64,000 nt of DNA from Paracamarosporium sp. OC-R06-R3 (taxonomy: Eukaryota; Ascomycota; Dothideomycetes; Pleosporales; Didymosphaeriaceae). Position numbers and translations under genes: made by a program. The DNA is taken from positions 62,001 through 126,000 of the forward strand of contig JACVRA010000127.1 of the NCBI GenBank assembly GCA_019828545.1. The letters run 5' to 3'. Shown here in pieces: positions 26,564 through 41,122 of the stretch. The notes below the pieces were generated by a model. It was not told the DNA's origin and did not search any database. It worked only from the letters and a program-made list of their open reading frames with translations. Every line of letters begins with the position of its first letter. Position 1 is the stretch's first letter.

Positions 26564-27264
26564 GATGGATTAAAAAGATGGACAAATTTGTCACGAGGCG
26601 AGCGTAATCCGAGCAAGCGGAATCCGAGCGAAAGTCCTGATATAAGTCCAGCCTCATTTGAGCGTCTCACGGCGGGGGCTGGGGACCCTTTCCCCGAGAC
26701 GTATCCTGACGGGCGGACAAAGGGGAATGCGTTTGGGTCCTTTGACAGGATGAACGCCGTGCAGGGTTACATCTAGAGGGATAGCCAATCAGACCCAATG
26801 ATGTCGACGCAGTAGGAACGGGCCGCGACGGCTGACGCTTACATTCTCCGCGGATTGCAACGCGATGCTTTGGCAGGGGAGATTTTACCTGGCAAAGAAC
26901 TTCTTGGAGGCTTAGGGGACCCCGGACGCGCTGTGCGTTCAGACTTAATTGGAAGGGTGTATATATGTGGAAGAATACGATTTGCAAACATATCTTACTG
27001 CGGTAAGAAGATGTTGAAAACGAACCAAACTTTTACCGTTGCGTAATCAAAAGAACAACGAATCAGAGAGTTGCACGAATAGTTACTCACGAGAAATTTG
27101 CCAAGGAAAGGCTGTAAGAGGTGATTCTTGTCGTCCATTGTTTGTGCGGGGTCTGTAGGAAGATGGTCACGTAAGCTACGCAAGCGACCTTTGTCTTTTG
27201 CCTATCAACCTAACCAAACTTCCTTCTCGCCCTCTGAAAGTACCAAAATCACGTCGAATCCACC
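26564..27264. promoter_or_regulatory. intergenic region between divergent genes
   Basis: About 700 bp separate the starts of the SAT4-type gene and the MetE-like gene. No coding frame with motifs. A TATATA stretch at 26959-26964 is far from either start. Confidence 0.35.
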
Positions 27265-28314
27265 ATGGCACCCAATGAAGTTCTCATGGTCGGTAGCGTT
27301 CCTGGGACTGGGCCGCACGATGTCTTTACTCGCCTCGTCGCCGCGCTGCCTGGCCGATTGCAAGCTGTACCAGATGGTGAGGTTGGCGAACGAAACAACT
27401 ACATTGGATGGCAGCTGCAGCGTTTCCCTCGCGTGGCCCGGCGAAATGAGTTGGGAGGTACGCCATTGCCTGAATCTGGACCGCCGACGTTTTCGCTCGA
27501 GGACATTCAACCAACTGCCTACGACGAGGCCGCACTGTCGTCCTACGCCGAGTTTACACGTCTTCGCCAGCAAAAGATTATTCCACCAAATGTTCTCTTC
27601 CAAATAGGCCTGCCCTCACCCTACAGCGTGCTGACCGGCCATGTAAAACCGGAGCTGGTCAATGCGATTGAGCCGCTGTATGAGCAGCGCTTCGTGGAAT
27701 CCATCAATCGCATCGTTGCGAATATTCGTCATGAAGATTTGATAATTCAATGGGATCTGTGCTTCGAAATCACGGCACTCGAGTTTGATCGAGGGCGGCT
27801 TATAGACAAACGCCATCAGCCCTACTTTTCGACACCTGTGCTACAAGGTTTGGTAGACCGAGTGGTGCGTCTGTGTAAACAGATTCCTGAAGATGTCAAA
27901 ATCGCCTTTCACCTTTGCTATGGCGATCTCCGACACAAGCATTTCATCGAACCAGAGGACACATTGCTCCTTGTCGAATTTGCAAACGCCTTGCTTTCGT
28001 GTGAGACGATTGGCCCGAGGACTCGGTGGATCCATCTTCCGGTACCAAAAGATCGATCAGATGCTGGATACTTTGCACCTCTGACCGGCCTCGAGCTCAG
28101 CGGCTCAAACCCACCACTCTTGTACCTCGGCCTAGTGCACGCCAATGACGAGGCTGGGACACGGAAACGCATAGAGACTGCGCAGTCTAGCATTCCATTC
28201 GCGTTTGGGGTAGCGACGGAGTGTGGACTGGGAAGGACTCCGCTGGAAGAGATTGACAGCATTTTGCAGATTTGCAAGGACGTCACCACGGAGCGCTCCT
28301 CAGAGCATCTCTAA
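27265..28314 (+). CDS. UROD/MetE-like (cobalamin-independent methionine synthase-like) protein
   Basis: Single exon, 349 residues, starting MAPNEVLMVGSVPG. The fold pattern is a single TIM barrel as in the C-terminal domain of MetE: FHLCYGD near residue 215 (His-x-Cys) and ATECGLGRTP near residue 325 (Cys then GLGRTP), the positions of the zinc ligands. Lacking the N-terminal barrel, it is not a full methionine synthase; fungal genomes carry many such short relatives of unknown substrate, presumably zinc-dependent thiol methyltransferases. It lies 0.55 kb from the O-methyltransferase end of the candidate peptide cluster; membership is possible but unproven. Confidence 0.75.
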   Translation: MAPNEVLMVGSVPGTGPHDVFTRLVAALPGRLQAVPDGEVGERNNYIGWQLQRFPRVARRNELGGTPLPESGPPTFSLEDIQPTAYDEAALSSYAEFTRLRQQKIIPPNVLFQIGLPSPYSVLTGHVKPELVNAIEPLYEQRFVESINRIVANIRHEDLIIQWDLCFEITALEFDRGRLIDKRHQPYFSTPVLQGLVDRVVRLCKQIPEDVKIAFHLCYGDLRHKHFIEPEDTLLLVEFANALLSCETIGPRTRWIHLPVPKDRSDAGYFAPLTGLELSGSNPPLLYLGLVHANDEAGTRKRIETAQSSIPFAFGVATECGLGRTPLEEIDSILQICKDVTTERSSEHL

Positions 28315-28864: not shown

Positions 28865-30315
28865 TCATCCCTCCCAGACAACCTCGAGGATAGCATGAGC
28901 AGCTCCTCGAGCGGAGAATGGACGGATCTTCCCGAACCGGGAGTCCGCCTCGGTGAAGATCATCTGCCATTCGGGTATGGTACGCAGCCGTGAGTTGTTG
29001 GTCGTTAGCAAGACCAGATCGATGAAGCTAAGATTTGTTCAGCACATGAATAGGGGCATTGAAGAACTTTTACATACCGGGTGGTTCGCTCGAGCGTCAA
29101 CGGCAGAGACCCTGGTTGCGGACTGAGACTTTCGTTTACGAGAATCCGCGCCCCCGTGCGCAGCGCAGGCACCTGTGCCCGGAGGATGCGGACGACGTAG
29201 TGGTCTGGCCAATTGTGGAATATCCCTCGAAACAGGTAGACGTCCGCCAAAACGGGCTGCGTCTTGAAGAAGTCATACGCTTGGAATCGGACGCGCGGAA
29301 TCGACGGTGCGGCTGCTACCACATCTGGCAGATCCTCTACCACCATGTTTAGTCGGGGATGAGCTTTACTGATTGCCCGGCTGACGTAGCCATCTGCACC
29401 GCCAACATCCACCACTGTGCCTGCACCGAGAGCGCTCCAGTCGTAGTTTGCGACAAGATGGGATTCCGAATATCCAGGCACCGACGCCGAGTAAAATTCC
29501 ATTGCCCTACTGAATTGCTTGGCCTTGATGGGCTCCGTGCGCAGGTAGTCGTACATTGTCTCGTCAGTGTTGTGGGCCAATGCGAATCCCTGTAAGAGTC
29601 AATATTGTTCGGCAATGAGCTTTTTGAGACATACCGTGTGATTGGGTTCGCCATCTTTGAAAGCATCCAACGCGTCTGCAGTCTGCTCACAAAGTCAACA
29701 CTGGGCTACGCATGTTGATTGCTACGTACCCTAGCAAAAGACCCGTAAAAGTCGTTGAATGACTGACTGACTCCCGCACGCACTAGATTGTCGGAAGCAA
29801 GTTTCCTCGATCCTGCCGAATGCGCTACGAAGCCTTCCTTTGGCTCCTTGAAAAGTCGATGAAAGGACATGGCGAAGCGCAGGATGCGTTTCAGGTCATT
29901 GACATGTAGGTCTGTGGCCTGGGCCAACTCTGTGAATGAGATCATGCCCTCTAGTGGGACCTTTTGGGCAATGTCATGGCGGGAGATGATTTGCAAGCTA
30001 GTGCCATTGTACTGCCAGCTTGTCAGTCGACATCTTTGACTTGTGTATCATGCACACCTTGGGCAGCATGCAGGTGACGGGCCCTTGTAGCAGGTCCAAT
30101 AGCTCTTGGAGCGCATCGATTGCAGTGCTGCGTGCACGCTCCATTTGCGGAGAGAGATTGAGTTTGACGGGTCCATCTATTTCAAAAGAAGGCTGCGGAA
30201 ACCCATTCTGTTGAAGATGGTTGCTGATATCGTCAGTATTGGTCTTGATAGTAGCCGCCAACTGCTCGATCCGTGGAGTCATTGTGTGCGTTGAGATGAG
30301 GGTCATTGTAGTCAC
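28865..30315 (-). CDS. SAM-dependent O-methyltransferase (AflP/OMT-type), cluster member
   Basis: Five exons (30058-30315, 29730-30011, 29635-29682, 29078-29589, 28865-29027), 420 residues; all four introns (46, 47, 45, 50 bp) keep frame. N-terminal winged-helix dimerisation region (HDIAQKVPLEGMISFTELA), SAM site VVDVGGADGY near residue 257, and the FRGIFHNWPDH catalytic His near 320. The last exon gives DLVLLTTNN...RTIPEWQMIFTEADSRF, a standard C-terminal pattern of plant-type/fungal OMTs. It ends EVVWEG. Enzymes of this type methylate hydroxyl groups of natural products; here a tyrosine-derived phenol of a ribosomal peptide is a plausible substrate (inference). Its start is only 64 bp from the stop of the first UstYa-type gene; a TATA-like element lies within that gap. 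Confidence 0.88.
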
Positions 30316-30332
30316 GGTATGTATATAAATAC

Positions 30333-30342
30333 ACTTGGATTT
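30333..30342 (-). promoter_or_regulatory. TATA-like element of the O-methyltransferase gene
   Basis: On the minus strand a TATTTATA-type stretch lies about 20-30 bases before the OMT start, in the 64-bp gap behind the UstYa-type gene. Spacing is close for a fungal TATA box, so this is tentative. Confidence 0.35.
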
Positions 30343-30379
30343 GATTGAAGATTCGTCTGACTATTCGTATAGTGGAAGT

Positions 30380-31227
30380 TTACTGCCGAGAATCGAACAT
30401 GAATTTTGTCGCGTTGATCGCGCGCCACTTTTCTGCCCATGCGTAAATTTCACCGTAGTCGCGACACTGCCGCCCGAACATGACCGAAGGATAGTGACCT
30501 GCATAAAAGGGCTCGATGCCGACGTCTGCCTTGCAGATGAGACTTTGCTGCAGATAGTCCAGGCAATGGCCAATGTGGTCAGGCTCACGCACGCCCGTCC
30601 TGTTGAACTCTTGCCCCTTGGAAGCGGCATACGCGGCGTAATATGCGCGTCGGATCGAGTACTGATTGCACGGTTAAAGAATCTCCAAAACGGGGCAATA
30701 CCTACAAGGCAATACTTACCAGGCAATGCAATTGGTGGTAAACGCCAATGATGGAGAATTCAGGTGCCAAGGTGGGATGCCTAACATATCCAAGCCCGTC
30801 TACAGGGAGTTTAGTTTGAACGACTTGAGCCCTGATATTGCTTACTGGGAATCAGCCGATCCCACGCAGGTTCGTGACTCCCATCGGCTGGCGGTGCAGC
30901 TTGCATTTCGGGCATGGTCAGGACCTGCTGCCGCAGCTGACGGGTGGCGGGCACTAAGAATCGTTATTCGTTAGCTCTCTAATCGTGACTAGAACGAAAG
31001 GGTCAACTCATACATGATGGAATGATGTTTGGAAGCGTTGACGGCTGTGTACTCGTAGATCCAAGCATTAACCCGACACCAAAGCTGAGACCACAGAGCA
31101 TCAATGCCATCGCCACCAGAAGCCAATATTTCGGCGACTTCGAGTCCGGTCGTGGCGACTCGAGATGATCGTCAGGGCTCGTTTCGAGCTTCGAGTACAG
31201 CGGGCTTCCGTATATCCGATAAAGCAT
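30380..31227 (-). CDS. UstYa-like (DUF3328) oxidase 1
   Basis: Four exons (31014-31227, 30846-30953, 30720-30799, 30380-30661), 227 residues; introns 60, 46 and 58 bp keep frame. Architecture: short cytosolic N-terminus, one transmembrane segment (YWLLVAMALMLCGLSFGVG, about residues 34-56), then a lumenal domain. The two diagnostic HxxHC motifs are present: HQLHC (at the end of exon 3) and HIGHC (exon 4, followed by DYLQQSLIC). UstYa proteins are proposed copper-type oxidases that close ether or C-C bonds in dikaritin peptides. The exon boundary directly after HQLHCL is typical of the family. It faces the peptide precursor across a 650-bp intergenic region. Confidence 0.9.
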
Positions 31228-31880
31228 GGTGGGGCTGGAGACGAGACGAAGGGAGATTCGAAATTTCTTTTAGCGATGGTGATGCGATTCATGTACGTTG
31301 GAGAAGCGGCACAGTTACCACGCCGCAGAGGAATGGGGTTGAACATGGATGACGAACCCCGACGTTGCCAAGCTGAGAGCTGCGGATGGGGCGTTGCTTG
31401 TTCGGAGGGCCCGCGTAGTGAAGCTACATGATTGATTAACAGTAAGGCAACCTATCACAAGATGAACGTACTTGTGCATGAGCCATTGAGCAGGTAACAA
31501 ATCGAAGCGCGAATACCAGGATCCATGCCAATCTTCATGCAGGTCTGAAGCCCGATGTAGTATTGAATGAGTGAACACGACAGTGAGAGTAGTCACGGAG
31601 GATCAAGGAGTGCAATGATTGGACTTTTTCATCTGCTCAGCTTCCGGCTCTAGCAAGGTAGAGTACGACCAACATTTCCATCCGAGGTTCAACCTTGCAT
31701 TCAGCAGCCCTTGAACGAATCAGCCATGTGGGGGCAATGTGTACTCCAAGACGCTGTTGGTAAGATGCATTCGGCTAGTCTTCGTCCCGGGTTTTCTTCA
31801 ACCTTGTTTTTTTTCCGCTGTGCATTGTATATATGATGACTCGACATTGATCATTCTAGATCATCAAGACAACCTCCAAA
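31228..31880. promoter_or_regulatory. shared promoter region of UstYa 1 and peptide precursor
   Basis: About 650 bp between divergent starts. A TATATA box at 31828-31833 lies about 48 bases before the precursor ATG. No gene is supported; the short frames inside lack motifs. Its position could let one regulator control both divergent genes. Confidence 0.55.
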
Positions 31881-32196
31881 ATGCGTTTCATTTCCATCCT
31901 GCTGCTCAGCTTCGTTTCCAGCGCCGCATCGCGAAGCCTCAGACGTAAGAATATCAGAGAAGAACAGACGAGTGAGCTAAGATACAGTAGGCGCAAATAT
32001 TGACGTTGTCGGCAACGAATACAAGCGGAGCATCCAAAACCCCGATGACGTTGATTTCGACCAAATTGGAGATGAATACAAACGGAGCATAACTACTCCA
32101 GAAGAGGTGGATTTTGACGCTGTGGGGGACGAGTACAAGCGGAGCACTCAAGACCCCGAGGATGTGGACTTTGACGCCGTGGGTGACGAATATTGA
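31881..32196 (+). CDS. RiPP precursor peptide, ustiloxin/phomopsin (dikaritin) type
   Basis: Two exons (31881-31944 and 31988-32196; 43-bp intron GTAAGA..TACAG), 90 residues. A signal peptide (MRFISILLLSFVSSAAS) is followed by four repeat units. Three Lys-Arg-Ser sites (Kex2 sites) separate them; every unit ends in (V/I)G(D/N)EY, and the last ends at the stop codon. Units 2-4 share a Pro-(D/E)(D/E)-VDFD spacer and are 19, 19 and 16 residues; the first is shorter. Repeats differ by many synonymous codons, so protein-level selection is likely. Dikaritins are made this way: secretion, Kex2 trimming and oxidative cyclisation through Tyr. The exact core is not certain. Flanking UstYa-type, tyrosinase and transporter genes support the call. 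Short and intron-split, so easily missed by annotation. Confidence 0.88.
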
Positions 32197-32422
32197 CTTG
32201 TTCGTGTAAATCGATAATATCAAGACCCAATCACAGTTTTGACCATTTGTGTGGGTCCGGTGCATTTCGGGCACCCCGGAATCCAGGCAAACGTTGATAA
32301 CAAGTTTTATCTTTGCATGATATCCCGGTCTTCTGCGTCTTGGTGATGACTACATGCATGGCATGGCGAACAGCTGACATGCCAAAACACAAACATGGTC
32401 TACCGTGTAATGTATACAAAAT

Positions 32423-33268
32423 CTATGTCATCGTGTCCCGACCGTAGTCTATGGGCTTCACGCCATCATCTCCGCTCTCCCTACAGAAGCCAAAGTGGTC
32501 TTTTAGAGGTATATCCTCGATGCTGTCTCGGTAGCATGCCGTGTTCTCAGCAGCCCACACGCGTAATTGCTCCCAATCTTTACATTGATGAAGTTGTCCG
32601 TCGCCAGCAGTATGATCACCGAATGAGTACAGAGGTGTATTATCTGCATTGCACTGCACGTTTTGTCGCAGAGCATCGAAACAATGGTCGAGGTGCGATC
32701 CAGGATGGTATGTGAATGGTTTGCCATCGACGGCTTCCCATAACGTTAGTCGCATGATGCGCTATATGGTTAGCAGTGCTCAACTAGAGTCGAGAGACAT
32801 ACTATGCAATGGAGTAGGTGGTATGCTTCGAGGAGATATACGGCTTTTGTTTTGTCCCCCGGGTAATAGCCACTGAGCGGCCAATGCTGCTCCGCCGCCC
32901 AATCTCGATCGACGCTCACGATGCCGTGCGCTGGATTGATTTCGTCCCAAAGACTATCGGCATCTGAGCGATTTGCGGGACTGTAGGCTGTGTTCCACCA
33001 AAAGCGCTTGTAGACGGTGTCGAGGTTGGCAGTACGGGCTGTTTGTCAGTGGCTGTTTGGTTTCTTGGAGTGATGACCTACCGAGCTGAGGTGGAATTCG
33101 CCCGTGTTGCATCCAAAAGGGCCAGCTGAGTGAGACTAGGTTTGTCACTATGAGCAAGAATATACCGCAAATCGTCCATGGCTTTAGTGATTGTTTGCGA
33201 TTCATATGCGATTCATCCGCTGTATATAAATCTTCTGATGTTTTGGATAGACGCTGGTATGGAGCCAT
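32423..33268 (-). CDS. UstYa-like (DUF3328) oxidase 2
   Basis: Three exons (33082-33268, 32803-33038, 32423-32761), 253 residues; introns of 43 and 41 bp keep frame. N-terminal tail, one transmembrane helix (WTICGIFLLIVTNLVSLSW), then a lumenal domain with the two diagnostic motifs: HLLHC (end of exon 2) and HLDHC (exon 3), with ALRQNVQCNAD after the second. Same exon break after the first motif as oxidase 1, but the protein is divergent (no close similarity elsewhere by eye), so it is a distinct paralogue. An in-frame ATG 42 bases upstream (33310) would add MKNFLLSQSQFSVI; the start at 33268 (MAPYQRL) is preferred. In known clusters two UstYa proteins act as a pair on one precursor. Confidence 0.9.
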
Positions 33269-33656
33269 GATGACAGAGAATTGGCTTTGAGAAAGTAAGA
33301 AATTCTTCATAAGAGAAATCTGGACGCATTTTTTCCCATGCTCTCACTGGAGAGTTATCACTGCTCAGCCGACAAGGGTCGCGGCCTAATCAGGGAAGAT
33401 GCATATGTGCCCTGTACGATCTGCGAGGATCCCCGTTATGCAGGGGCCGTCATACCATGCCTACACGGCCAACATATGGCAAGACCCGATAGGCGTATCA
33501 TGATGCAAACGGACATACGCGGCACACTTGCCGGTACATGCAATCGTCTAGCCTTGCATCTTCGATATTGTCTTACCCCTCGAATACCATTGGAAAATTT
33601 TGTGCAGGACATCCTCTTATCACCTTGTTGCAATCGCTGCCATTCTTACTTTTGAA

Positions 33657-34837
33657 ATGCCGTCCAGTGATTACGAATCCGAGGAAGTCCGGGCGAGCGC
33701 GGAGCCTCTGTTGGAAAAGTCAGACCCAATTGTCTCGCGGCCATTATCGAGCAGGCGTCGCAAGACTTTGAGCATTGCTGCTGTTGTACTGATAACCGTT
33801 TCAATCATTATTGGAATTGTGGATACAAAGCACCAGATATGTCGACAGACTGCGGTTCGCCGCGAATGGCGGACACTGAGCAGCTCGGAGCGCCTAGAAT
33901 ATCTTCGCGCCGTCAAGTGTCTATCTTCGATACCGTCGACTGTCTGCAACGGAACTCTGCATGACGAGTTTGCATACATTCACCGCGAAGTTGGTGACTA
34001 TTGTGAGTAGATTTCTTTTTGAAGGCTTAGCTGACCTGAGAAGCGCACGAATCGGCTGCGTTCCTGCCGTGGCATCGATACTTTTTACACATTTACGAGG
34101 AAACACTAAAGAAGAAATGTCAGTTCAGTGGGACGTTACCGTGAGTAGTACTCGACCTTTTCAAATGTGTGTTGCTAATGATGGAAGATATTGGGACTGG
34201 ACGCGGGATTGGGTGAATTTGACTCGGGCACCGGTGTGGGACGCCAAAGAAGGGTTTGGTGGCAACGGTGACATGAACTTGCCAATCACGGTAGGCCACG
34301 GTCGTTGTGTTCGGGATGGATCCTTTGCAGACTTGCAGGTTCAGTACTATAGCGACGACTGGAGTCCGCACTGTTTGTCTCGAGGATTTTTGACAGGAAG
34401 ACTCCAAGACCATTTCGGAGCGCAGCGGCTGAACGAAAGCGCAATGGCGACTGTTTTGGATCAGGCTGATTATTTCGATTTTCTCATCAAGTTGGAAGAC
34501 GGTCCGCACTTGGCCATTCCCATCAACGTGCGAGGGGACTTTTCGCGTACCACGGCGCCGAATGGTATGTTTTTGATGTCTGCCAGAGAATCTTGCTGAC
34601 GAGAAAGATCCGATATTCTTTTTGCATCACGGCCAGCTTGATCGGCTCTGGTGGAAGTGGCAGAGTCGGGATCCTGGAGCGCGGGCAATGGCATACGATG
34701 GTCCATCGAAGCACAACTCTTTTGTTGCAGCACAGCTCACAGATTTGATTACAATGGGCGGACTAGCACCCGACATTCAAGTGAGATCAATAATGGACAT
34801 TAGTGATGGGTTGCTTTGCTACAGATATCAAGATTAG
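33657..34837 (+). CDS. membrane-anchored tyrosinase (UstQ-like)
   Basis: Four exons (33657-34002, 34044-34140, 34188-34564, 34608-34837), 349 residues; introns of 41, 47 and 43 bp. After a cytosolic tail, one transmembrane segment (LSIAAVVLITVSIIIGIVD, about 38-56) leads to a lumenal type-3 copper domain: CuA side HESAAFLPWHRYFLHIYEE (split by intron 1), PYWDWTRD, then EDGPHLAIP and CuB DPIFFLHHGQLDRLWW. Ends with GLLCYRYQ, as in UstQ-type enzymes. Such tyrosinases hydroxylate or oxidise tyrosine and are standard partners in dikaritin clusters. Start 33657 (MPSSDYES) chosen for family-like N-terminus; the frame is open further upstream. Confidence 0.9.
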
Positions 34838-35049
34838 TAGTTTTTCGAATTCACGGAAACAATAATGTTTAGCCGCATAATCTGAGCTGATAGATGCATG
34901 TGAACGACCCCATTCGGCGAGTAATTTAATGAAATGATCCTGGTCGGATGTGTCCCGCGGGGCTGATTATCTCTCGGCTCTTTTTAAATTGGCCGTAGGC
35001 TGCAACCCTTGATAGTATCGTGAATTGCACCCACTTCACGACAAAAGCC

Positions 35050-36919
35050 ATGTCAGCACAGAGACCAGCCACTCCCGGTAACATTGAGAAGGAGGTGAAG
35101 CAACAACCTCCTCGAGAATCTACCACCAGTCATCTTTTAGGGTGGCGATTGTGGCTCACAACCGCGGCGTACGTACACCTTGGAGTGGGGCGTGATTAGA
35201 TTGACGATTTTAGGATCATGCTTGCCACCTTTCTTGTCAACATTGAAGTCTCCATCGTGGGCACCTCTCTAATCACAATCGCCAATAGTCTTGATAGTTT
35301 CAATGAGACGAGTTGGATTGTGACTGGATATCTCGTGACATATACTGGTGAGTTTGACGATCCACACCCCAGAGTATGAAAGCTCACTCTGCAGGATTCA
35401 TGATTGTTTGGTCCAAACTAAGTGATGTCGTCGGTCGCAAATTGACTTTTGTCTCGACCTTGGTCTTGTTCACCGTCTTTTCCGGAGGATGTGGTGCCTC
35501 GCAGACAATGACTCAGCTGTATGTATATACTTGATCACGGTGAACATGTCTGACTTTTCAGGACAATCAATCGAGTCTTTCAGGGCATCGGCGGTGCCGG
35601 AACATATTCTCTGGCAGTTGTGGTCTTGTTCGAAATGGTGCCACGCACTAGGTGGGCGGCCTACAGTGGTGGCTCCGTAGCCGTCGTCTCGGTAGCTAAT
35701 GTGCTCGGGCCCGTTATTGGTGGGCTGATCAACATAAATGGATCTTGGAGATGGGCTTTTTTATTCATGTATGTCATCCTAAACCATCTGGCCTCATTGC
35801 TAACCACACTTCCATAGTGTACCTTTCGGAGCTCTCGCCATTGGTCTCATAATCGTTGCTTATCCAGGGCAGGGTCCCAACCCGAAACGAGCGACGTTGA
35901 AATGGACGAATATAGGGCGACTCGATTTCCTCGGGGCGATTCTTTTACTTGGCGCGTCCATGATGCTGGTGACTGCACTGCTGGAGGCGAGCATTCGACT
36001 TGGCTGGAGTGCAGGTGCAACCATTTCGCTTCTTGTAATTTCAGGATGCGGTTGGATCGGATTCTTCCTCTGGGAACGACTCGTCACGAAATGGCAGAGA
36101 CCAGAGCCGATTTTTCCATGGACCTTTTTTTCCAACACTACTTTGGTTGGGATGCTATTGTACGTTTTTCCACCTCTTGAAAACAAGTTTTGACTTTTCT
36201 AGAATGACATTCATGGTTGGTGTTCCATTCAATGCCCTCATCGTAAATCTCCCGCAGCGATTCCAGGCGCTAGACTGCAAGGGTCCTCTTGGAGCTGGGA
36301 TTTGGTTGCTCCCTTATACAGCAGTTTCGCCCGTATGCTCGGTGATATCCAACGTCGTAGCGTCCAAAGGTAGGGTGCCGCTGGTACATCTGCTGCTCGC
36401 TGGCGGCATTTGTCACCTCGTAGGCGTTACTCTCTTATCGACATTGAACGGAATCGACTTTCCGTCTGCTGGTTTGGGATACGAAGCCATAGCTGGTGCA
36501 GGCGTGGGCATTACATTCTCAGTTCTCCTCCTCGGAACTCCATTCGTCGTGGATCCGCGTGATATAGGTAAGTAGTCAAACGGCAAACGATCGTGTTCTG
36601 ACAGTGGTTAGCTGTCGCAACTGGAGCTATTGTTCAGCTACGTTTCCTCGGAGGTGCCATTGGAGTCGCCATCACATCGGCTTATATGAATAGCTATTTG
36701 AAATCGTCGCTCGCGAATGTTTTGAGTCCAGAAACTCTGAATGCGGTCCTCCAAGATACTAGCGTCATCCAAGGCTTGACTTTTCAGTTGCAGCGCGAAA
36801 CCAAGTCGATCTTTGCCCGTGGGTACGCAACGCAGACTCGAATTCTTATTGGCTTTGCGGCAGTGCAGCTCATTTCGGTGGGGCTTCTATGGCGTCAAAG
36901 ACAAACGAAAGTACCCTAA
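35050..36919 (+). CDS. MFS transporter of the peptide cluster (DHA14/TRI12-like)
   Basis: Seven exons (35050-35168, 35214-35347, 35395-35518, 35562-35768, 35818-36159, 36203-36567, 36612-36919), 532 residues, all six introns keep frame. Features of a 14-helix drug antiporter: WIVTGYLVTYTGFM, motif A-like KLSDVVGRK, RVFQGIGGAGTYSLAVV, GPVIGGLI, SWRWAFLF, then IWLLPYTA and GGAIGVAI. Short hydrophilic N-terminus (QRPATPGNIEKEVKQQ) and C-terminal WRQRQTKVP. Similar in type to the transporter at the window start but not adjacent to it. Likely exports the mature peptide or gives self-protection (inference). Last gene of the cluster; the next gene on this strand lies 1.9 kb away. Confidence 0.9.
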
Positions 36920-39257: not shown

Positions 39258-39270
39258 GCGCTAATTCATC

Positions 39271-41122
39271 ATGGAGCAGGCCGATAGTCGATTCTCGCAT
39301 CGAACTGGCTGGCCCAGGTTACCTGCGCTACCTCTGGAAACAACCTCTGTACGAACGTATCGGCCGCGCCGGGAAGACCCCCGTCACACCTACCAGGCCG
39401 ACTTTGAGAAAATTGAACAAGACGTTGAGGCCATCCTGGCTGGAAACGGCGTTCATATACTGCATGTGGCTCTATACTACCGCTACAACGAAGGTATCCC
39501 CGAGTCGGAGCGAAAGCAAACATTTCTCTGCTATTCGGACCTCGAACGACAAGGACAGAATATCGAGACATGGCGCCATGCCGCTGAAGAAGTTGCCGAG
39601 ATGCTCCGACAGCAAGAATGTGAATATGCTATTGAGATTATCGACCATCGGGCGTACCACGTCGATACGAGGATAATCAAAAGCGACGAGAAAGAAGTGC
39701 TTGATGCTTGGATCGATTATGCTCCACGTGTTGAGCGGTGCATCGCCAACCACGACTGGATCACTGTGGATCTGCTGCACCGAGACTGGTATGGAGCGCG
39801 AGAAGATGCAAAGGCCACCGTTGTGATCTGTGCTAGAGACGCTAATGAGAGCTCCTGGGACGACACTCTCTCTGCACTACGAGCGCTTCTTCCCAGCTTC
39901 CTCGACGTTGAACTTGCCTATATGAAGACCGTCTATGCCATGAATGGACCTGAGGAGACGAGACGCTGTGTGACACATGAGGAGCTCGAAGACATGCTAT
40001 TCTCAGAACCCCGTTCTATATCCATGGGTGCATCTTGCGGACGCAAATGCAAGAAAAAGGACCCCGCACATGGAGATACAAATGAGCGTACCGGAGATAG
40101 TGGCACTTTGGGAGGGCTCATCAAGTTTGAAAACTGCACTACGCAGTTTGGGATCAGTTGCCACCACGTATTTTTCGACAAAACCGAGAATGGTAAATGC
40201 ACTCTTTTCTCAATCAATATATTTGCTAACCAGGAGACTAGCTCCGAAACCACCTGGCCACATCGAAGAGGTCATCACTCTCAGCCCTCCATATGTCGAC
40301 GTTGGCTTGAAAATCCAAACACTTACCCAGAGAATTGAACTGAGTACTGGGATAGCCGCATCCCTGATGACAGAATTCGCTGACCCAGGCCGTGCAGACG
40401 TTGAAAGACTTGAGAATATGAAGAGATTCTTTGCAGCGCTAAACGACAACGTACGTAATGATGGCACGGTATACGCATCATCAGGGGACTCGTTTGTCAA
40501 TAACCCAAAGCTTGAAGACGTATTCTGGGGAACATGGAGGTCGGACTGGTCTCTGATCGAAATTGACAAGAGGAGAAATGTCGTCGAGAAGACACCCAGG
40601 GACACGCCAGTAACCACATACCAATCAATCAGCCCTTTCAAGCTCTACGACGTCGTGAAATACGGCAAGACATCGGGGGAAACGATTGGAACAATAAGCG
40701 CCGCTTTCTCCATGCATCGAAACAAGACTGACGAACCACAATCTCCTCCCGAAAACCCAGCAGAAAAGCACTCGGTCGCTTGCTTCGATGGTGCAGAAGA
40801 CCCGAAGCGCAAGCATGAGGATCCACCAAAACTGCTTTCAACCAATATCTGCCATACAATCATCAGTCGCAGCAGAGATAGGTTCATGGAAGCAGGAGAC
40901 TCGGGTTGTCTTGTTCTGCTGGACCCCGAGAGTGATAAGATTGGGAAGCCTGCTGGAAACTCGAAATCTACTTCAGTCGTCGGATTGGGCTTCGGAATGA
41001 ATCAAGTCACTTGGGCAAGCTATATGATGCCCTTTGACCTAGTCGTGGAGGATATTCAACGGGTGACGAAACGAGTCGTGGTCCATCCACGGAAAGATGG
41101 AGAAGCTCAATCTCGAGAATAA
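39271..41122 (+). CDS. trypsin-like serine-protease-domain protein, 600 aa
   Basis: Two exons (39271-40192, 40242-41122; 49-bp intron with CTAAC branch) give 600 residues. Residues 1-270 are a soluble N-terminal domain (FEKIEQDVEAILAGNGVHIL, with alpha/beta character). A chymotrypsin-fold region follows: GTLGGLIKFENCTTQFGISC-H-H-V near 290-300 (catalytic His) and EAGDSGCLVLL near 525 (Gly-Asp-Ser-Gly, nucleophile Ser). The Asp of the triad was not assigned with confidence. No signal peptide, so it acts inside the cell. Pleosporalean and other fungal genomes carry hypothetical proteins with this arrangement; substrate and role are unknown to me. The 131-residue protein directly upstream may be a partner. 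Confidence 0.7.

Follow-up and report, generated by a model that had tools for sequence, protein, structure and literature searches.

Does the stretch between positions 28865 and 36919 of a 64,000-nucleotide region of the Paracamarosporium sp. OC-R06-R3 genome (positions 62001-126000 of contig JACVRA010000127.1, hereafter the window) encode a pathway for a ribosomally synthesised and post-translationally modified peptide (RiPP), and if so, how does it relate to the fungal types already described? A sequence-only reading of the window had proposed a new dikaritin-type cluster with the gene set expected for ustiloxin- and phomopsin-type peptides. Our analysis makes it very probable that the locus is a compact dikaritin-type RiPP cluster, with a minimal cyclisation set of one tyrosinase and two UstYa-type oxidases acting on a core with a C-terminal tyrosine.

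The source genome comprises 43.1 Mb in 337 contigs. Splice models built by hand on GT-AG introns yield six genes with unbroken reading frames within 28865-36919, in the order and on the strands that the sequence-only reading had assigned to them:

28865..30306, minus strand: O-methyltransferase-fold protein, 417 amino acids (exons 30058-30306, 29730-30011, 29635-29682, 29078-29589, 28865-29027; PF00891, 88 bits)
30380..31227, minus strand: UstYa-type (DUF3328) oxidase 1, 227 amino acids (exons 31014-31227, 30846-30953, 30720-30799, 30380-30661; PF11807, 79.7 bits; motifs HQLHC and HIGHC)
31881..32196, plus strand: precursor, 90 amino acids, or 89 with the alternative acceptor (exons 31881-31944 and 31988, or 31991, to 32196)
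32423..33268, minus strand: UstYa-type (DUF3328) oxidase 2, 253 amino acids (exons 33082-33268, 32803-33038, 32423-32761; PF11807, 75.9 bits; motifs HLLHC and HLDHC)
33657..34837, plus strand: membrane-anchored tyrosinase (UstQ-like), 349 amino acids (exons 33657-34002, 34044-34140, 34188-34564, 34608-34837; PF00264, 133.1 bits)
35050..36919, plus strand: MFS transporter, 532 amino acids (exons 35050-35168, 35214-35347, 35395-35518, 35562-35768, 35818-36159, 36203-36567, 36612-36919; PF07690, 123.4 bits)

A Pfam scan of these six genes and of 10 other long open reading frames (ORFs) of the window names five of the six (Methyltransf_2, UstYa twice, Tyrosinase and MFS_1) and returns no match for the precursor. 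The paired-motif oxidases, the membrane-anchored tyrosinase and the MFS protein stand as first described; the transporter is closest to DHA2-type efflux families, with every score under the family cut-off.

The evidence for a modified-peptide pathway begins with the precursor itself. Its N-terminus is hydrophobic (residues 3-14, mean Kyte-Doolittle value 2.25), suggesting a signal peptide as judged from hydrophobicity only, and its four units, ANIDVVGNEY, VDFDQIGDEY, VDFDAVGDEY and VDFDAVGDEY, all end in (V/I)G(D/N)EY. The residues KR follow units 1-3; unit 4 ends the gene, its EY being followed directly by the stop codon, and hence lacks a Kex2 site. The original description of a signal peptide followed by Kex2-bounded repeats therefore holds for the hydrophobic start and the three KR sites, and needs amending for the unbounded last unit and a divergent first one. 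The precursor intron (31945-31990) has a tandem acceptor, CAGTAG, at which it may end at 31987 or 31990; the choices differ by one residue, and RR precedes unit 1 only with the second acceptor (the 89-residue form).

Codon comparison of the repeats, taken as 17-residue units, points to the part of each unit that matters. Units 3 and 4 differ in their last ten codons by five synonymous and no amino-acid changes, and in the preceding seven codons by two and four, respectively; the corresponding values are five and two, then two and four, for units 2 and 3, and six and two, then one and three, for units 2 and 4. Because the last ten codons of units 3 and 4 have changed five times without altering an amino acid, VDFDAVGDEY looks like the selected core, with the ten residues ending in Tyr apparently held by purifying selection and the spacer drifting. 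A scan of the 64 kb for four-residue words recurring before [KR]R found two places, GDEY in the precursor and an unrelated AHLG, and none of 40 shuffles in three-base blocks gave any. No paralogue of the precursor was found in the strain's own genome, where the window copy stands alone.

The same pattern recurs in two other species. When 5.8 billion proteins were searched, two homologues of the precursor emerged, one in Annulohypoxylon moriforme and one in Whalleya microplaca, which match about 60% of its length at 72-73% identity; each has three units, and the precursors of all three species terminate in GDEY. Taken together, the three species offer ten units: all ten have the same G, E and Y, nine have V and one has I at position 6, and nine contain Phe. 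Both homologues share a contig with a homologue of a cluster enzyme, as judged from equal contig size in bases, a measure that does not give the distance between genes: in A. moriforme, the precursor and the best oxidase-2 homologue (82% identity) are each found on a contig measuring 288131 bases, and in W. microplaca the contig size of the precursor and of a tyrosinase homologue (68%) is 1513493 bases. By the same measure, homologues of oxidase 2 and of the tyrosinase lie together in Xylariomycetidae sp. FL2044, Xylaria telfairii (on a contig of just 31662 bases), Viridothelium virens and Massariosphaeria phaeospora. This comparison was scripted for all 48 oxidase-2 homologues and for 26 of the 120 tyrosinase homologues listed (the best 120 of 408 matches); inspection of the remaining 94 by eye gave no further match.

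Both oxidases carry two HxxHC motifs and one strongly hydrophobic N-terminal segment, and they are only 27% identical to each other over 89 residues. Two or more HxxHC motifs are present in 44 of the 48 oxidase-2 homologues, which include proteins of the lichens Imshaugia and Usnea. In a tree of 30 of the 48, oxidase 2 groups with eight Xylariales sequences (support 100/99), and the nearest sequences outside are from Aspergillus, at moderate support (88/80). The structure predicted for the A. moriforme orthologue of oxidase 2 (mean predicted local distance difference test score, pLDDT, 82.5; predicted template-modelling score, pTM, 0.71; model alignments with 33 of the 48 homologues) places the HxxHC motifs on consecutive helices, 133-152 and 163-178. 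The arrangement is like that of CctR, a DUF3328 hydroxylase described in PMC12435403 as a membrane-associated dimer whose binuclear copper site is formed by paired HxxHC motifs and which requires oxygen and electrons. Among solved structures we found no sequence relative of the UstYa fold (best E 0.033), and a comparison of folds gave nothing at E <= 0.001; the copper site therefore rests on the CctR work; by analogy with it, both oxidases are probably copper-dependent and dimeric.

The tyrosinase likewise has one strongly hydrophobic N-terminal segment, and six of its histidines are jointly kept in 111 of the 120 homologues listed, with His209 conserved in 118. At the second copper site, the second His of the usual HxxxH is replaced by Pro259 (GPHLAIP). 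We considered whether this marks a damaged enzyme and discarded the idea: Pro stands there in 103 of the 120 homologues listed, including two named ustQ, and judging from this alignment it is a feature of the whole family of UstQ-like proteins, and a structure showing their copper ligands would be worthwhile. The predicted model of the Whalleya orthologue (pLDDT 87.2; model alignments with 40 of the 120) matches the Aspergillus oryzae catechol oxidase 4j3p with a template-modelling (TM) score of 0.74. The matches listed include a Hypomontagnella tyrosinase that is 66% identical, ustQ-named proteins of Fulvia (P0139) and Metarhizium (P0163), and proteins of Letharia and Usnea. In a tree of 30 of the 120, the tyrosinase groups with 17 sequences from Xylariales, their allies and two environmental samples (support 100/99), the nearest outside sequences being again from Aspergillus, at moderate support (87/82). 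The strain's own oxidase-2 and tyrosinase sequences branch outside, or unresolved within, the Xylariales-rich clade, a placement that would fit a family allied to the Xylariales as well as a transfer.

How, then, does the locus compare with described systems? A DUF3328 gene is the defining dikaritin feature according to Montalban-Lopez et al., as cited in PMC12048977, and the locus has two, both with paired HxxHC motifs, beside a precursor with a hydrophobic start, four units and three KR sites. Like the clusters for ustiloxin B (Aspergillus flavus) and phomopsin (Phomopsis leptostromiformis), it combines a signal-bearing multi-core KR precursor with DUF3328 oxidases, a tyrosinase and a transporter, and it holds a trio of the ustiloxin-cyclising kind: as outlined in PMC6514808, ustQ, ustYa and ustYb alone gave the first cyclic ustiloxin intermediate. 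The cores differ, however. In ustiloxins and phomopsins the first residue is Tyr, linked to an internal Ile (as summarised in PMC9233826), whereas here Tyr is last in ten of ten units in three species, and we therefore do not file the locus under either. The ustiloxin/phomopsin type also has an S41 peptidase and a PhomR-like zinc-finger regulator; we found no S41 peptidase on the cluster's contig (six matches genome-wide) and neither a Zn2Cys6 nor a P450 haem motif in any window frame, by a motif scan that is blind to intron-split motifs. No flavin-containing monooxygenase (FMO) was detected among the six genes and the 10 other long ORFs, as the sequence-only reading had stated; in lacking a detectable FMO or P450 nearby the locus is again unlike those clusters. 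UstM and PhomM are N-methyltransferases, whereas the only methyltransferase among the six genes is the Methyltransf_2 protein (we made no direct comparison with UstM or PhomM). The comparison made at the outset therefore stands for the precursor, the UstYa pair, the tyrosinase and the transporter, and fails for the position of Tyr and for the peptidase and regulator; with these differences, the assignment of the locus as dikaritin-type in the broad sense, and not as ustiloxin or phomopsin, stands.

Other systems supply precedents for single features. The C-terminal Phe of victorin is joined to an internal Leu, so a C-terminal aromatic partner has precedent, and in epichloecyclins an N-terminal Ile is joined to an internal Tyr (both in the relevant passages of PMC9233826); both differ from the core here, VDFDAVGDEY, with its terminal Tyr. 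Asperipin-2a is made by a four-gene set that includes a precursor, one DUF3328 oxidase, a transporter and a reductase (PMC6514808, in outline), which indicates that an in-cluster peptidase or regulator is not required; the passages of that source on asperipin-2a mention neither a tyrosinase nor a methyltransferase, whereas here there are two oxidases and a tyrosinase. Closest in enzyme content is clan R1 of the lichen family Parmeliaceae, characterised in the relevant parts of PMC12048977 by two DUF3328 genes, a tyrosinase and an O-methyltransferase (OMT) placed between the two oxidase genes, without an FMO, P450 or pyridoxal-phosphate (PLP) enzyme, with a formylglycine-generating-enzyme (FGE)-sulfatase and without a recognised repeat precursor; its authors note there that O-methyltransferases had never been reported before in dikaritin clusters. 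In contrast, the OMT here lies outside the DUF3328 pair, and the Pfam scan of the six genes and the 10 other long ORFs showed no sulfatase-modifying enzyme. The lichen sequences fall outside the Xylariales clade of the tyrosinase tree, and we therefore regard clan R1 as kin, not as identical.

The type itself has been met elsewhere. Precursor searches with phomA/gigA-type sequences found ustiloxin-like clusters, possibly of the same type, in the Hypoxylaceae, namely in Hypomontagnella species, Hypoxylon rubiginosum and H. pulicicidum (Kuhnert et al. 2021; PMC8403587, in part). A survey of 1461 fungal strains counted 7878 Kex2-processed repeat proteins (KEPs), 1758 of them near DUF3328 genes, with a small peak of tyrosinases two genes away; the proteins of its type G-6 (#13), some of them from Hypoxylon and Monosporascus, are rich in Y and D, and 46 of the 49 have DUF3328 nearby (relevant sections of PMC7329392). 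The precursor described here may already be counted within that type. A literature search on DUF3328 or dikaritin clusters with an O-methyltransferase gave no description of this cluster by title or abstract, subscription journals being thinly covered. The claim of novelty is accordingly narrowed to the locus and its product: the type is known and such clusters are common, many Xylariales share the enzymes, and lichens have a similar set (PMC12048977, in part).

We envisage the following pathway, on the assumption that the six genes are expressed together. The precursor would enter the secretory pathway, where Kex2 would cut after KR and a carboxypeptidase would remove these two residues. Each peptide would then carry (V/I)G(D/N)EY at its end, its C-terminal Tyr free; for the last unit trimming would be unnecessary. 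Cross-linking would fall to the tyrosinase and the two UstYa-type copper oxidases, the latter probably dimeric. They would join side chains oxidatively at Tyr, most likely through an ether between its oxygen and the beta-carbon of the Val or Ile four residues upstream, and the Phe at position 3, which unit 1 lacks, is a possible second cross-link site. Methylation by the methyltransferase-fold protein might follow, for instance on an oxygen of a phenol or catechol, before export by the MFS protein. The computed [M+H]+ of VDFDAVGDEY is 1129.468 for the linear form, 1127.453 with one cross-link, 1141.468 with a cross-link and a methyl group, and 1157.463 with a cross-link, an oxygen and a methyl group; the unit 2 core VDFDQIGDEY would give 1200.506 (linear) or 1198.490 (cross-linked), and the full unit SITTPEEVDFDAVGDEY 1886.818 or 1884.802.

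Might these genes simply be neighbours by accident? UstYa genes are abundant in this genome, with at least 54 UstYa (PF11807) and at least 22 tyrosinase loci (lower bounds, from merged exon-level matches), and uniform placement over 43 Mb predicts 0.55 tyrosinase-UstYa pairs within 10 kb. Yet only one of the 22 tyrosinase loci has any UstYa locus within 10 kb, namely that of the cluster, which has two (1.3 and 3.4 kb away); the next closest pair in the genome is 30 kb apart. In 20,000 simulations of uniform placement, a simple null that ignores gene-rich regions, at least one UstYa locus fell within 4 kb of any tyrosinase in 19.8%, and at least two in 0.115%, and for this reason co-location by chance is unlikely. 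With the repeat precursor sitting between the two oxidases and homologues on shared contigs in other species, we regard an accidental grouping as extremely improbable. A more substantial alternative is that the precursor yields an unmodified, linear secreted peptide, akin to pheromone- or signal-like KEPs, and is merely sited among oxidases: its mature form is acidic and might be active without modification, and the 1758 KEPs with DUF3328 neighbours are a minority of the 7878 surveyed. UstYa-type genes flank the precursor on both sides, however, with the tyrosinase next; KEPs annotated as mating factors or pheromones nearly all lack DUF3328 nearby (PMC7329392); and both precursor homologues share a contig with an enzyme homologue, all of which makes a linear product quite improbable.

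The methyltransferase-fold protein poses a separate problem. Among its solved relatives HpiI scores 130.7 bits and 7bqj 120.8, ahead of CalO6 at 78.4, and LepI is also matched; after HpiI, the matches include ordinary O-methyltransferases. HpiI and its kin, as well as LepI, we take to be pericyclases of methyltransferase fold, which raises the alternative that the cluster is as described, with this protein acting as a pericyclase or otherwise without methylating, or belonging to another pathway. Its glycine-rich VVDVGGADG stretch and its FHNWPD stretch, on the other hand, presumably resemble those of ordinary SAM (S-adenosylmethionine)-dependent O-methyltransferases; a short cross-linked peptide is no obvious pericyclic substrate; and the lichen clan R1 clusters also hold O-methyltransferases (PMC12048977, in part). 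We judge such a non-methylating or foreign protein unlikely, if worth keeping in mind. The O-methyltransferase label given at the outset holds as a fold assignment only; because the best solved relative is HpiI, methyl transfer itself is plausible and not safe.

Several observations weigh against a dikaritin-type cluster of six genes. Unit 1 of the precursor diverges from the others (ANIDVVGNEY, without Phe), neither the S41 peptidase nor a cluster regulator turned up nearby (on the contig and in the window frames, respectively), and the precursor homologues number just two, one of which shares with a tyrosinase homologue a contig as long as 1.5 Mb, which is weak proof of clustering. Oxidase 1, the OMT and the MFS transporter are assigned to the cluster by position only. 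Whether homologues are clustered or scattered in other genomes, a check set out together with the first description, comes out in favour of clustering on the genomes compared, since both precursor homologues share a contig with a close homologue of oxidase 2 or of the tyrosinase; against this, by an eye count among the matches listed, nine of the 13 species found in both homologue lists (Xylaria longipes and Nemania diffusa among them) show no shared oxidase-2/tyrosinase contig and four do. The Xylariales subset, also among the matches listed, divides two and two, and unshared contigs perhaps reflect representatives from different assemblies or loci. We continue to prefer the dikaritin-type cluster at the high probability given above.

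A stronger claim would be that the locus represents a distinct RiPP subtype, in which a tyrosinase, two UstYa-type oxidases and a methyltransferase-fold enzyme act on a VDFDAVGDEY-like core with the C-terminal Tyr as cross-link donor, the last core being freed without Kex2. We advance this tentatively and consider it doubtful as yet. If true, it would supply a precursor for the tyrosinase/two-DUF3328/OMT set, which in lichens is so far without a recognised one, and would predict what to seek there. For the preferred dikaritin-type reading, a named precursor and an explicit core tied to a very small enzyme set make cross-linking by a tyrosinase and two UstYa proteins testable with few parts, and the locus may help find which precursor belongs to the lichen tyrosinase/OMT/DUF3328 clusters. 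Both enzyme families, that of oxidase 2 and that of the tyrosinase, recur across the genomes of Xylariales; small precursor genes are easily overlooked in their annotation, and the core motif offers a search term.

Some further features of the genome and window were noted. Several UstYa loci lie together on contigs such as C50, C163 and C260, and the strain is rich in possible DUF3328 pathways. The intergenic regions of the cluster share no meaningful promoter motif (the longest common word, of 10 bases, occurs in two of the four). Between 48000 and 50500 the window is repeat-rich, with tandem arrays (periods of 97, 23 and 18 bases) and degenerate repeats that resemble coding sequence but are interrupted by stops; a second repeat precursor at about 49.6-50.3 kb, suggested by an antisense reading, was rejected, its plus-strand translation having stops in all three frames. 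Two overlapping long ORFs at 39265-41122 (plus strand), 2.3 kb past the transporter, contain a GDSGC motif as in serine proteases and match no Pfam family above cut-off. On the other side, an intact ORF of 358 codons at 27238-28314 (plus strand), without a Pfam match, is convergent with the methyltransferase-fold gene and could mark the edge of the cluster.

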